A stretch of DNA of 64,000 bases, taken from positions 372,001 to 436,000 of the forward strand of contig NZ_QBKT01000001.1 of assembly GCF_003054265.1 (NCBI RefSeq). Reading direction: 5' to 3'. A program made the position numbers and the translations under genes. Below the pieces are notes generated by a model. It saw only the letters and a list, made by a program, of their open reading frames with translations, searched no databases and had not been told where the DNA came from. Below, in pieces: positions 3,246 to 11,893 of the stretch (within the stretch, counting starts at the first letter, position 1; each line of letters starts with the position of its first letter). The stretch is from Kordia periserrulae (GTDB lineage Bacteria; Bacteroidota; Bacteroidia; Flavobacteriales; Flavobacteriaceae).

Positions 3246-3659
3246 ATGAAAATAATCGACAGAATACTCCTCTTCATTAAGCATAAAAACTTGAGTATGC
3301 GTATGTTTGATAAGTCAATCAGCGTAGGAAACGGCTATACAAGCAAGCAATCGAAAGCGAATGCTTCTGTAGGGAGCGACGTGCTTGAGAGAATAATCGA
3401 TACGTATCCCGATTTGAATCCGCTATGGTTGCTTACAGGAGAAGGTGAAATGATTCGTGAAATCACCAAAAAGCATCCTACCAAAAATACTACGGAAGAA
3501 CCACCATTGCAATACGACACGATTGACGACATGATTAATCATAAAATTGAAAGCTCCATACAACGACAATTCAAAGTGTTGTTAGACAAACTTGACACGT
3601 TTCCAACCATGGAAGACATCCGAAAAGAGATTGAAAAAATGCAAAAAAGTGACCAATAG
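3246..3659 (+). CDS. CI-like helix-turn-helix regulator, paralog 1
   Basis: The 137-residue protein has an N-terminal helix-turn-helix domain (residues 1-65) of the kind found in XRE/phage CI repressors of Bacteroidota. It reads MKIIDRILLFIKHKNLSM, then SVGNGYTSKQSKANASVGSDVLERI, and ends in the hallmark LNPLWLLTGEGEM. Residues 75-90 form a Pro/Thr-rich linker. The C-terminus (95-137) is a charged amphipathic helix, likely for oligomerisation. There is no peptidase (LexA/CI C-terminal) domain. The protein encoded at 3899 is very similar in the first 65 residues and in its general C-terminal plan, so the pair arose by tandem duplication. The target genes are unknown. Confidence 0.8.
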   Translation: MKIIDRILLFIKHKNLSMRMFDKSISVGNGYTSKQSKANASVGSDVLERIIDTYPDLNPLWLLTGEGEMIREITKKHPTKNTTEEPPLQYDTIDDMINHKIESSIQRQFKVLLDKLDTFPTMEDIRKEIEKMQKSDQ

Positions 3660-3898: not shown

Positions 3899-4291
3899 AT
3901 GAAAATAATCGATAGAATCATAGAGTTTATTAAGTATAAAAATATGAGCATGCGTGCCTTCGATATCTCAATAAAAGTGGGCAATGGCTACACCAGCAAG
4001 CAATCAAAATCGGGCGCTTCTATCGGAAGTGATGTTTTGGAGCGTATTATCGATACCTATCCAGACTTAAATCCGTTGTGGTTGATTACAGGAAATGGTG
4101 ATATGACGATTCCAATTCGAAAATCAGACGAGCCGCTTCCCGATTACGGAGAAACGATTGACGAAATTTTAGAAAATAAAATCAAGCGTATCGTACAAGA
4201 ACAGTTAAAAGAGTTTAGCGACAAATTAGAATCGTTTCCAACGTTGGATCAGATTAGCAAAGAGATTCAAAAAAATCTGCGCGGAGAATAG
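3899..4291 (+). CDS. CI-like helix-turn-helix regulator, paralog 2
   Basis: This 130-residue protein is a close paralog of the product of 3246-3659. It has the same N-terminal helix-turn-helix domain (MKIIDRIIEFIKYKNMSM, then VGNGYTSKQSKSGASIGSDVLERI, ending LNPLWLITGNGDM) and the same acidic-basic C-terminal helix (ENKIKRIVQEQLKEFSDKLE). The linker and C-terminal third have diverged most. The stop codon at 4289-4291 directly abuts the stop of the convergent cyclase-family gene at 4292, leaving no intergenic base. No terminator hairpin was seen at this junction. A role as a transcriptional regulator is inferred from the fold only. Confidence 0.8.
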   Translation: MKIIDRIIEFIKYKNMSMRAFDISIKVGNGYTSKQSKSGASIGSDVLERIIDTYPDLNPLWLITGNGDMTIPIRKSDEPLPDYGETIDEILENKIKRIVQEQLKEFSDKLESFPTLDQISKEIQKNLRGE

Positions 4292-5101: not shown

Positions 5102-6226
5102 TTACACTTTAAAGAAATCTGCAGCAATTCCATCACAGAGAAACTTTCCTTTTTGAGTAGTTTTGATACTGTCTTTTTCGGTTTGAAGTGTTTCTTCTTG
5201 TAAATGTTTTTGGGCGCTTTTTTGTGTGTGATGTAGATAGTTGTCACCAAATTCCTTTTGAATGTATTGTAAAGAAATTCCCCAAATCGTGCGCAAACCT
5301 GTCATGACATATTCGTTGTATTGATCGTCTTTTGACAAGGTTTCTGTCGTAGATGGAAGTTCATTTTGTTCCATACTTTTGATGTATTTGGTATTGTTTG
5401 AAACATTCCAACTGCGGGTTTTTCCATCAAACGAATGTGCACTTGGGCCAATTCCGATATAATGAGCACCTTTCCAATACGAAGAATTGTGCTTCGAAAA
5501 ATAATTCGGCTTCCCAAAATTTGAAATTTCATAATGCACAAAACCTTGCTTTTCGGCTTCTTGAACCAACACGTTAAAATGTGCCAAAGACGCTTCTTCA
5601 GAAACATTTTGATATTTTCCTTGTCGGATAAATTTTTCCAATGCCGTTTTTGGCTCTACCGTAAGTGCGTAACTTGAAATATGAGAGATTCCAAAGTCAA
5701 AAACTGTTTGTAAGTTGGTTTGCCATTCTTCCATGGTCATGTTTGGAATTCCGTAAATCAAATCGACAGTAATATTGTCAAAATACTGCGTCGCGATTTC
5801 CAAGCATTGTTTCGCTTCTTCACTATCGTGCGCGCGATTCATTAGGGTTAAATGCGCATCAAAAAACGATTGAATTCCGATGCTTAATCGATTGACCGAA
5901 GATTTTGCCAACTCCATAATTTTTGCTTCGTGTAAATCGTCTGGATTGGCTTCTAGCGTAATTTCAGGGGTTTCAGAAACGGTATAATTTTCAGAAACCA
6001 CCGCTAAAAGCTGATTGATTTCTTCTGACGAAAGTACACTTGGTGTTCCACCACCGAAATAAATAGTTTCTACAGTAGTAGTTGCCAATTCTTCACGGCG
6101 CAATTCTAGCTCTTTTTGTAACGCTAACAGCATGGCATCTTTCTTGGCGAGCGACGTAGAAAAATGAAAATCGCAATAATGACAAGCTTGCTTACAAAAC
6201 GGAATATGTATATAAATACCAGCGAT
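5102..6226 (-). CDS. hemW: HemW-type radical SAM protein; expected start codon reads ATC
   Basis: The protein resembles HemW (heme chaperone, formerly called anaerobic coproporphyrinogen oxidase-like). It has the radical SAM strand AGIYIHIPFC, the cluster motif C-x3-C-x2-C (CKQACHYC), YFGGGTPS, LEANPDDL, RLSIGIQSF, and a C-terminal HemW-type region. From 6226 the frame gives 374 residues, the usual length, but it begins with ATC (6226-6224) where homologs have ATG before AGIYIHIP. The frame is closed by TAA 12 bases further upstream. The first in-frame ATG, at 6133, would delete the whole Fe-S cluster motif. Either ATC initiates, or the gene is damaged, or there is a sequence error. The ATC lies 13 bases after the upstream gene's stop, which would permit translational coupling. 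Confidence 0.75.
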   Translation of the reverse strand: MAGIYIHIPFCKQACHYCDFHFSTSLAKKDAMLLALQKELELRREELATTTVETIYFGGGTPSVLSSEEINQLLAVVSENYTVSETPEITLEANPDDLHEAKIMELAKSSVNRLSIGIQSFFDAHLTLMNRAHDSEEAKQCLEIATQYFDNITVDLIYGIPNMTMEEWQTNLQTVFDFGISHISSYALTVEPKTALEKFIRQGKYQNVSEEASLAHFNVLVQEAEKQGFVHYEISNFGKPNYFSKHNSSYWKGAHYIGIGPSAHSFDGKTRSWNVSNNTKYIKSMEQNELPSTTETLSKDDQYNEYVMTGLRTIWGISLQYIQKEFGDNYLHHTQKSAQKHLQEETLQTEKDSIKTTQKGKFLCDGIAADFFKV

Positions 6227-6238
6227 GACTTTCTGTTT

Positions 6239-6526
6239 TTAATCTGACAAACGCATAATTAATCGTACCAACAACAAAATAAAAATGATAATACTTAACA
6301 CCACACGCCAAACAGGAACGCGTTTTCCGTTGGCATCATATATATCATCAACTTCAATAGCCGCTTGTCGGTCTGCCATGCGTTTTTCGTGTTTTACATC
6401 TCTTACAAAATCGTCACATTTTAGCAAAAATGCTGGTTTTTCATTCGTTAAACCACATACAATTCCCTGCGACGAAGAGAACGAACGATTGGTACAGGTT
6501 TTACAAAATTCTATTTTATCACTCAT
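6239..6526 (-). CDS. Small zinc-ribbon-like, single-pass membrane protein
   Basis: The 95-residue protein has an N-terminal Cys cluster (FCKTCTNR, then VCGLT and LKCDDF), a charged middle (residues 40-68), and one C-terminal membrane segment (about 71-91, VWRVVLSIIIFILLLVRLIM). This fits a tail-anchored protein with a cytosolic metal-binding head. I recognise it only as a type of small protein common in Flavobacteriaceae, with no known function. Its stop codon lies 13 bases before the presumed hemW start, and 20 bases separate its ATG from the end of the LRR lipoprotein gene. The three are therefore likely cotranscribed with ruvC. Confidence 0.75.
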   Translation of the reverse strand: MSDKIEFCKTCTNRSFSSSQGIVCGLTNEKPAFLLKCDDFVRDVKHEKRMADRQAAIEVDDIYDANGKRVPVWRVVLSIIIFILLLVRLIMRLSD

Positions 6527-6546: not shown

Positions 6547-8253
6547 CTATTTTCGTGGAGTCACATTCAAATTCGGATTGATTGTTTGTAGCGAATCTAT
6601 GTTTTTTTGTGAAATATATTTTGGATTGACCATTAAATATTTTAATTCGGAATCTTTAGCTATTGATGTTGGAATGTTTGATATTGGTGTATCATGAACA
6701 TCAATACTGTATAAGTTTTTGAGCTTTGCTAGTTCTTTTGGATACATCTTAAAATCATTACTATCTAACGAAACATCAAACAAATTCTGTAATTTTTGAA
6801 AAGATTTGGGCAGTCCTTTCAATTTATTAGTACTTAAATTTATCGAACGAAGTGTTTCTAAATCTCCAAAAGTCTGCGGTAGCTTTTCAATTTTGTTATG
6901 ATGCATACTTAAGCTTCTTAAATTGACCAAATATGAAAGTGTTTCAGGTAAAGTTTCAATTTTACAACGATTGGCGGATAATTTTATTAATTGCGAACAG
7001 TAGCCCACAACAGCAGGAAACTGTTTAAGTCTTGTTTGAGAAATCTCCAAATACTGCAAGCACTGTAAATTTTGGAAAGTAACAGGAAGTGATGTGAGTT
7101 TTAAATTGGTTTCTAGGCTCAGGTATTTCAATTGTCGCAATTCTCCAATGCCATTGGGCAATTCTTGTAAAAGATTCCCTTGCAAACTCAACATCCATAA
7201 ATTATCAAGCAACGCTATATTCTCTGGAAGTTTTCTAATACCGCATTGACCAAGTTTTAAAATTCTCAAATTTGGCAATAAACTCAATTGTTGAATGGTT
7301 TTTTCAATGTCAGTAAATTGATTTCGCGACAAATCTAAAATCTCCAAATTTTTGAACTGAAATAATGTTGTGGGTAGTTCATGCAATTCACTGTCTCGAA
7401 GATTTACTATTTTCAATTCATTACGCTGCGGCAATAACGCTTTTAAATTTTCTGTTCTAGGCACTCTTGCAATACTATTTAAAATCTCTATTTGGAAACG
7501 TTTGTTTTCATCAAACATATTGAAATCAGCACAATTATTTTTCAGAATACCATCCATTTCTGATATGGTTAATTTTGGTAATTCAAACTTAGCAACTTGC
7601 TCAAACGTTATTTTATCTTCTATAATATTGCGCATTAAAAGCGTGTCTTCTTGAAAACCACGATTATCCAAAAAAGCAGTATCCCAAACAGCACCTTCTT
7701 TATTGTTCCCTAAATACTTGGAGAAAATCATGAAATAATAATTATTACGAATGTCTTCATACGTTCCAGGCATGCGCGTTCGTTGCTCATACACTTTGGC
7801 AGCAATATCAAATTTTTGTGACATAAACGCACAGTTTCCTTTCCACGAAAGTAGAAATGGATTTTTTCCATGGCGTTCAATAATGGTATCAATATCTGCC
7901 ATCGCTTTTTCGAATTCATTTGCATATAAGTATGCTTGAAAGCGAAACAATGTCGCTAAAGAACTTTCTGGAACATGCTCAAGATATGTATTCAAATCGG
8001 AAATGATTCCTTTGATGTCTAAAGGTGCAACATTGGTAGCGATTTTGGCTCGTGAAAAATACGCTTCTATATCTTCTGGCTTTCGCTCTAAATATTCGTC
8101 AATCAAATCTTTAGCCGCTTTCCAATTTTTAGATTCTGATGCTTTTTGATACCGTTCTTGTAGTTCTTCATCACTCAGTAAATTTCCACAAGTAATAAAA
8201 ATTATAGATAAGAATCCTATAGAAAGTATCTTAGAAAAATTCGTCAATTTCAT
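6547..8253 (-). CDS. TPR plus leucine-rich-repeat lipoprotein
   Basis: The 568-residue protein starts with a lipoprotein signal peptide ending in FITC (Cys22). Residues 30-175 are tetratricopeptide-like (KNWKAAKDLIDEYLERKPEDIEAYF and similar units). From about residue 280 to 545 there are roughly eleven leucine-rich repeats of the plant/bacterial type, with the pattern L-x2-L-x-L-x2-N-x-L-x2-LP. LRRs of this kind bind protein partners. A lipid anchor would place it at the inner or outer membrane, facing the periplasm or the surface. Its ATG overlaps the ruvC stop by 4 bases (8250-8253), so the two are translationally coupled. That is an odd pairing and probably reflects position rather than shared function. 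Confidence 0.85.
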   Translation of the reverse strand: MKLTNFSKILSIGFLSIIFITCGNLLSDEELQERYQKASESKNWKAAKDLIDEYLERKPEDIEAYFSRAKIATNVAPLDIKGIISDLNTYLEHVPESSLATLFRFQAYLYANEFEKAMADIDTIIERHGKNPFLLSWKGNCAFMSQKFDIAAKVYEQRTRMPGTYEDIRNNYYFMIFSKYLGNNKEGAVWDTAFLDNRGFQEDTLLMRNIIEDKITFEQVAKFELPKLTISEMDGILKNNCADFNMFDENKRFQIEILNSIARVPRTENLKALLPQRNELKIVNLRDSELHELPTTLFQFKNLEILDLSRNQFTDIEKTIQQLSLLPNLRILKLGQCGIRKLPENIALLDNLWMLSLQGNLLQELPNGIGELRQLKYLSLETNLKLTSLPVTFQNLQCLQYLEISQTRLKQFPAVVGYCSQLIKLSANRCKIETLPETLSYLVNLRSLSMHHNKIEKLPQTFGDLETLRSINLSTNKLKGLPKSFQKLQNLFDVSLDSNDFKMYPKELAKLKNLYSIDVHDTPISNIPTSIAKDSELKYLMVNPKYISQKNIDSLQTINPNLNVTPRK

Positions 8254-11015: not shown

Positions 11016-11480
11016 CTATTTCTCTTGATACAACCGCGAATCAAAGCTAAATTTTTGAACTTTTGCGACGGTTATTTTGTGGAAATCTATGTGTAACGGA
11101 TTTAAGATATAATTGAATTCGTCTTTAACAATGGCAGAAGGCACTTTGAGTACGGCACATTTATTTTCCGTGACGAATTTGGTAAAAATTTCTTGCGTTT
11201 TGCTGTTGTATGGAAACGTATTCCAGTCTTTCGGAAGTTTTTGAAGTTCGTATATCGGAACTTCATCAGGAATGTCTACATGCACTAAAATACGATCGCT
11301 TGGCAAATCTTCTGTAATGTCAAGATGCATCACAACTTCCAAATATGCTAACGAAATGTGTTGCGAAGTATATACGGCACGCGTTCCAATTTCGTTCCAA
11401 CGTCCGCCAATTTTTTCTGCACCAATTCCAGAAAGCAAGTTGTTTTTCCGTTTGGCTCTGTCAATTCTGTAAACAATCAT
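11016..11480 (-). CDS. RES-domain toxin (NAD+ phosphorylase type)
   Basis: The 154-residue protein is a RES domain, with the conserved Arg in MIVYRIDRAKR, GGRWNEIGTRAVYTSQHISLAYLE (residues about 26-49), and a C-terminal half with the family's conserved Ser/Asn-containing segments. Characterised RES toxins degrade NAD+ and stop growth until blocked by a cognate Xre/MbcA-type antitoxin. Exactly such an antitoxin gene lies directly upstream, its TGA overlapping this ATG by one base (TGATG at 11480). ATG 11480-11478 is preferred to the TTG just upstream. The pair is therefore a complete type II toxin-antitoxin module. Confidence 0.9.
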   Translation of the reverse strand: MIVYRIDRAKRKNNLLSGIGAEKIGGRWNEIGTRAVYTSQHISLAYLEVVMHLDITEDLPSDRILVHVDIPDEVPIYELQKLPKDWNTFPYNSKTQEIFTKFVTENKCAVLKVPSAIVKDEFNYILNPLHIDFHKITVAKVQKFSFDSRLYQEK

Positions 11481-11893
11481 CAAGCAAAAATTCCGTAATC
11501 AATACGTCGTATTTCGTCAATGACCAACTTTACACCATAACTCGTATCTAATAGTGAAAAAGGCGTTTGCCCGCCCAAAACTTTACTTTTTTTATTGAGC
11601 CATCTGGTAAATTTTTTCTCATCACCAAATACTTCAAAACCTTTTGAATATACTTCAGCAATTTCAAACAAACGCTCGCTAACTTCTTTATCGTAACTTG
11701 TTTTTTTAGATAAGGTAGAATACGATGCAGGCACAATTTCTGATATCTTTGTCAAAGGCAATGCGACACGCAGGCTAAATTTTTTCAATTGTGAACGTGT
11801 CACACCATTTCGTGTGGCGTGAATGACTTTTAGTTTGTTTTGTGGTGAGTCATTTCTGTTGTCAATATAGCTTGTAAGAGTCAGCGCTTCCAT
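11480..11893 (-). CDS. Xre/MbcA/ParS-family antitoxin (DUF2384)
   Basis: The 137-residue protein has an N-terminal region with an Xre-like helix-turn-helix (about residues 30-75, including GVTRSQLKKFSLRVALPLTKI and PASYSTLSKK). Its C-terminal DUF2384 toxin-binding domain contains FTRWLNKKSKVLGGQTPFSLLDT and ends RIDYGIFA, where the last residues plug the RES active site in known complexes. It is transcribed first, before the RES toxin, as usual for this family. Autoregulation of the operon is expected from the family, but no clear palindrome was picked out in the 102-base gap upstream. Confidence 0.9.
   Translation of the reverse strand: MEALTLTSYIDNRNDSPQNKLKVIHATRNGVTRSQLKKFSLRVALPLTKISEIVPASYSTLSKKTSYDKEVSERLFEIAEVYSKGFEVFGDEKKFTRWLNKKSKVLGGQTPFSLLDTSYGVKLVIDEIRRIDYGIFA

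Follow-up and report, generated by a model that had tools for sequence, protein, structure and literature searches.

We present evidence that hemW of Kordia periserrulae (Flavobacteriaceae) very probably has its true start at an AUC codon, set in a leader of the type that precedes infC, the gene for initiation factor IF3, and that this arrangement would give low and probably IF3-restrained HemW synthesis. The gene lies in the window analyzed here, a stretch of 64,000 nucleotides of contig NZ_QBKT01000001.1 (positions 372,001 to 436,000; all coordinates below are those of the window). As the odd start recurs in many genera and sits in an infC-like leader, the ATC seems to be a genuine weak start, probably a regulated one, and neither an error nor the sign of a dead gene.

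The hemW frame is on the minus strand, between 6238 and its stop at 5102, and translates as KQKV-I-AGIYIHIPFCKQACHYC... At the ancestral start, where relatives have ATG, stands ATC (6226-6224, minus strand; placed by the frame and the relatives), followed by GCT GGT ATT TAT ATA CAT ATT CCG. Read from it, the proposed coding sequence (5102-6226, minus strand) specifies 374 aa, an annotation based on the frame, the family match and conservation. Four codons, AAA CAG AAA GTC, separate the ATC from a TAA (6241-6239, minus strand) that is in frame with hemW and terminates an upstream 95-codon ORF (6239-6526, minus strand), which has no assigned family and is common to Kordia species. The gap is 12 bases; the preliminary description had given both 12 and 13. 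There is no ATG, GTG, TTG or CTG in the frame 5' of the Fe-S motif, and the first NTG is an ATG at 6133 (6131-6133, minus strand), a likely false annotated start whose 343-aa product lacks the CxxxCxxC signature. This signature is present as CKQACHYC (6173-6196, minus strand) when the gene is read from the ATC and is lost if translation begins at the first ATG. The frame thus bears out the earlier observations that no ATG, GTG or TTG precedes the motif, that ATC stands at 6226-6224, and that a start at 6133 would remove the radical SAM cluster. On this reading of the frame, the AUC at 6226-6224 is the only plausible start.

The product itself is an ordinary HemW, with only its start codon and leader being unusual. 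It matches TIGR00539 ('radical SAM family heme chaperone HemW') with 269.4 bits against a curated cut-off of 205.4, and also the Radical_SAM and HemN_C (PF06969) models; its N-terminus aligns through the cysteine motif with PDB entry 1olt, an oxygen-independent coproporphyrinogen III oxidase. The K. periserrulae genome has one HemW; the two weaker hits (25-29% identity) probably represent other radical SAM proteins. Between ruvC and hemW lie the 95-aa ORF and a protein with leucine-rich repeats and a lipoprotein-like start (6547-8253, minus strand); at hemW loci of other genera that have ATC, ATA or ATT starts, the ORF closest upstream has a RuvC-like end. Elsewhere in the window are two tandem and clearly related small ORFs (3246-3659 and 3899-4291, plus strand; MKIIDRI...NGYTSKQSK...DLNPLWLLTGEGEM), probably duplicated repressor-like proteins, and two adjacent ORFs (11016-11893, minus strand) that by eye resemble a RES-domain toxin and an Xre-type antitoxin.

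Purifying selection has acted strongly on the codons that precede the first ATG. In the Kordia hemW genes starting with ATH (ATC, ATA or ATT), codons 2-31 have a pS of 0.57 and a pN of 0.037, i.e. a pN/pS of 0.065, as against 0.229 for the rest of the gene. Because of this low ratio, the segment is very probably translated and needed. In a screen of 222 non-overlapping genes with Kordia orthologues, drawn from 400 kb around the window, only hemW had an N-terminus whose conservation begins about 30 residues before the first NTG; the rest, as read from the list, start with ATG, GTG or TTG.

Of the 11 Kordia genomes compared, six have ATC as the start codon, four have ATG and one has ATA; the codon is ATC or ATT in Maribacter algarum, Aquimarina and Planktosalinus. 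Across a sample of 400 Flavobacteriaceae genomes, ATH occupies the hemW start in 26, spread over 21 of 237 genera (23 ATC, two ATA and one ATT); as pattern surveys miss divergent HemW proteins, this count is the minimum for the sample. With a wider pattern (D-T-N at the start), which also admits GTH and TTH, 227 genomes match; among the matches listed, inspection by eye revealed only ATG, TTG, GTG and ATH, and no GTH or TTH. At the level of the class Bacteroidia, a pattern widened to admit IYLHIP forms matches 73 of 119 genomes, with that of K. periserrulae being the sole ATH case. The control gene lepA, which matches in 106 of 121 family genomes, starts with ATG in all except one, which has GTG. 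Nearly all ATH hemW loci have an in-frame stop a few codons upstream, often a single codon away, with no NTG between; the exceptions are L084 (ATG at -29) and L098 (TTG at -16). Save for these incidental NTGs, a longer N-terminus beginning at another codon was found in none of the ATH-start hemW genes. Separately, the hemW of L044 has an N-terminus lengthened by a palindromic insert of the CCCCTTCGGGGAGG type, with no start codon at the usual site and an in-frame ATG upstream.

The ATH starts share a distinctive leader. Over 34 ATH hemW loci, remaining after removal of obvious duplicates, A occurs at -13, -12, -11 and -10 in 74, 91, 85 and 62%, and at -5 and -4 in 76 and 88%; a purine is found at -3 in 94% and a pyrimidine at -2 and -1 in 95 and 100%. 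The resulting R-Y-Y triplet immediately 5' of the start is seen in 31 of the 34 ATH loci versus five of 69 ATG hemW genes, which instead favour AAA. In the window, these features correspond to an A-tract at -14 to -10 (6236-6240, minus strand), which overlaps the upstream stop codon and matches both the prevalent A at -12 and the infC consensus; to AAA at -6 to -4 (6230-6232, minus strand), identified from the comparison of hemW and infC leaders; and to GTC as the R-Y-Y triplet (6227-6229, minus strand), recognized from the triplet counts and the infC leaders. The bare motif is not enriched across the K. periserrulae genome (115 matches versus 133 for a reversed control); hence, it is meaningful only at the start of an ORF. 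The hemW leader is less folded than its shuffled versions (z +2.16), and this comparison does not point to a regulatory hairpin. Shine-Dalgarno sites are naturally absent from Bacteroidota, and initiation in Flavobacterium johnsoniae is favoured by A at -3, -6, -12 and -13 (PMC6847099). The A-tract of the hemW leader fits these determinants, while the R-Y-Y triplet does not follow from them.

A close counterpart of this leader is found at infC, the textbook example of a gene with a non-AUG start. In all 36 Flavobacteriaceae genomes first parsed, infC starts with ATA and has no NTG upstream; of the four loci left from that parse, L231 and L235 also have ATA, L220 reads ATA-GCC-ATC, and L237 has ATC, again with no upstream NTG. 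The infC leader consensus, TTaAatTAAAAtTttW.AGcC, has features matching those of the ATH hemW signature. Scored with a matrix of infC leaders, ATH hemW leaders have a median of 4.7 versus -23.9 for ATG leaders, none of which reaches the ATH median (p about 1e-16, in a test that counts each species as independent and ignores shared ancestry). When the matrix is derived from non-Kordia infC genes only, the K. periserrulae hemW leader scores 12.0, a value attained, across 400 kb of the genome, by just two of 58,645 ATH triplets, one of them the hemW ATC itself. With the same matrix, four of the seven ATH Kordia hemW leaders score between -6.4 and -0.8, and the four ATG ones between -16.5 and -17.7. 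The infC-type match, as judged by these scores, is strong in K. periserrulae and looser in some of its relatives. In a scan of 1,142 ORFs, covering 1.6 of the 4.7 Mb of the K. periserrulae genome, hemW (13.5) and infC (13.3) stand out from the next best at 5.7; since both genes and their relatives trained this matrix, the scan speaks to the rarity of the signature and is not an independent discovery of it. In other Bacteroidia (L343, L345, L347 and L353), the infC starts also look like ATH (ATA or ATC), and several follow a GGAGG-like sequence (for example, caggaggttaac-ATA, taggaggttacc-ATA and aaggaggataat-ATC), an unusual context for a group said to dispense with Shine-Dalgarno sites.

A tree of 128 HemW proteins, computed by a quick method from an alignment that excludes the start codon, requires at least 19 changes in the ATH state, eight of which are forced by well-supported branches. 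By this reconstruction, the hemW start has switched state repeatedly. The leader seems to change together with the codon, because the close relatives L006 (ATG) and L112 (ATC) have leaders that differ throughout; these two form a natural before-and-after pair. As most Flavobacteriaceae use ATG, HemW function does not depend on the weak start.

We propose that ribosomes start hemW at the AUC at 6226-6224, with the initiator tRNA mispaired at the third base, and that the A-rich leader and the R-Y-Y triplet would offset part of the resulting weakness. IF3 would reject this start, thereby keeping HemW synthesis low and tying it to the level of IF3, as happens for IF3 itself; as a heme chaperone, HemW is probably needed in small amounts. 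Such an action has parallels in E. coli and Streptomyces, in which IF3 represses non-AUG starts, with autocontrol of infC; the infC start is ATT in the former and ATC in the latter, where the GTC start of sigR is also IF3-repressed (PMC5472188). Profiling in Staphylococcus aureus mapped an AUA start for infC along with further genes starting with AUA or AUU; output from such starts was about 10% of that from AUG in poor medium and, for one gene, up to 30% in rich medium (PMC13009471). By analogy with these systems, the AUC would lower HemW output, and hemW would come under the control of IF3.

The comparison with these known systems brings out both the likeness and the distinctness of hemW. 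Like infC, with its AUU, AUC or AUA start and IF3 autocontrol, it combines an AUH start with the same Flavobacteriaceae leader signature; however, infC is non-AUG throughout the family sample, whereas hemW is so in some genera only, and the infC autocontrol is one demonstrated in E. coli. The Streptomyces sigR (PMC5472188) is likewise a non-translation gene brought under a non-canonical start, but it codes for a sigma factor, uses GTC, and has demonstrated IF3 control, where hemW uses AUC and would be controlled by IF3 on the strength of the parallel. The pcnB gene of E. coli (AUU) and ccpN and cvfC1 of Staphylococcus (AUA/AUU; PMC13009471) also have AUH starts, and in these the start limits output. 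Unlike the staphylococcal AUA/AUU sites, which need extended Shine-Dalgarno motifs (PMC13009471), hemW has no such motif and instead has the A-rich leader and the R-Y-Y triplet.

The principal alternative is that the AUC is simply a tolerated weak start that sets a low output, with no meaningful regulation by IF3, and that the signature is what any AUH start needs where Shine-Dalgarno sites are not used. We regard this as possible, if rather doubtful. In its favour, the signature partly matches features known to promote initiation in F. johnsoniae (A at -3, -6, -12 and -13; PMC6847099), and the repeated gain and loss on the HemW tree (19 changes, at least eight of them forced) fits weak selection. 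Conversely, IF3 is documented to discriminate against non-canonical starts in both E. coli and Streptomyces (PMC5472188), and ATH persists through a group of Kordia species even though one substitution would restore ATG.

The remaining alternatives fare much worse. Initiation at the preceding triplet, which is GTC here and adjoins the ATC, has a precedent in the GTC start of Streptomyces sigR (PMC5472188), but it is very improbable in hemW: across the loci this triplet varies (ATC, GTC, ATT, GTT, GCC, GCT, ACC, AAT, CGT and CCT), whereas the next codon is always ATH and coincides with the Met position of relatives starting with ATG. We give equally little credence to an N-terminus supplied by readthrough of the upstream TAA or by a frameshift out of an overlapping ORF. 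The upstream ORF does end in frame, 12 bases 5' of the ATC, but in the Kordia species that have it the gap is 12, 14, 21, 17, 12 and 22 bases, so that the frame is not kept, and 31 of 33 ATH loci have no ATG in either of the other frames open into the start. Translational coupling to the upstream gene, which had been suggested to help the ATC initiate, was rejected as a requirement, the distance from the upstream stop to ATH hemW starts ranging from 2 to 338 bases (median 48) in varying frames. Finally, silencing of hemW by a point mutation and a sequencing error, listed in the preliminary description beside the now strongly supported option that the ATC initiates, are next to impossible, given the intact 374-codon frame, the purifying selection on the N-terminal codons (pN/pS 0.065 up to the first ATG), and the recurrence of the same codon in six Kordia genomes and of ATH in seven of the 11 Kordia genomes and 21 of the 237 genera, these independent genomes excluding an error.

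Non-AUG starts governed by IF3 are of an already known kind. As far as our search extends, what is new is hemW as such a gene, its repeated acquisition of the start, and a leader signature common to hemW and infC in bacteria that lack Shine-Dalgarno sites: a full-text literature search, which took in a minority of subscription papers, turned up neither a non-AUG start for hemW nor any account of infC starts in Flavobacterium. In practical terms, a gene finder that admits only ATG, GTG and TTG would place the hemW start at 6133 and lose the Fe-S motif; hence, hemW is likely to be misannotated or missed in genomes of this type.

The leader described here can serve as a sequence signature of non-AUG starts among bacteria that make no use of Shine-Dalgarno sites. 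We tentatively suggest, as a quite conceivable extension, that the Flavobacteriaceae may possess a dedicated, Shine-Dalgarno-free signal for AUH starts (an A-tract near -12, AA at -5/-4, and R-Y-Y), present in infC and repeatedly recruited by hemW, which would make heme delivery, like IF3 itself, subject to control by the level of IF3. If the part played by IF3 is true, this would represent a repeatedly evolved link between the fidelity of translation initiation and the delivery of heme.
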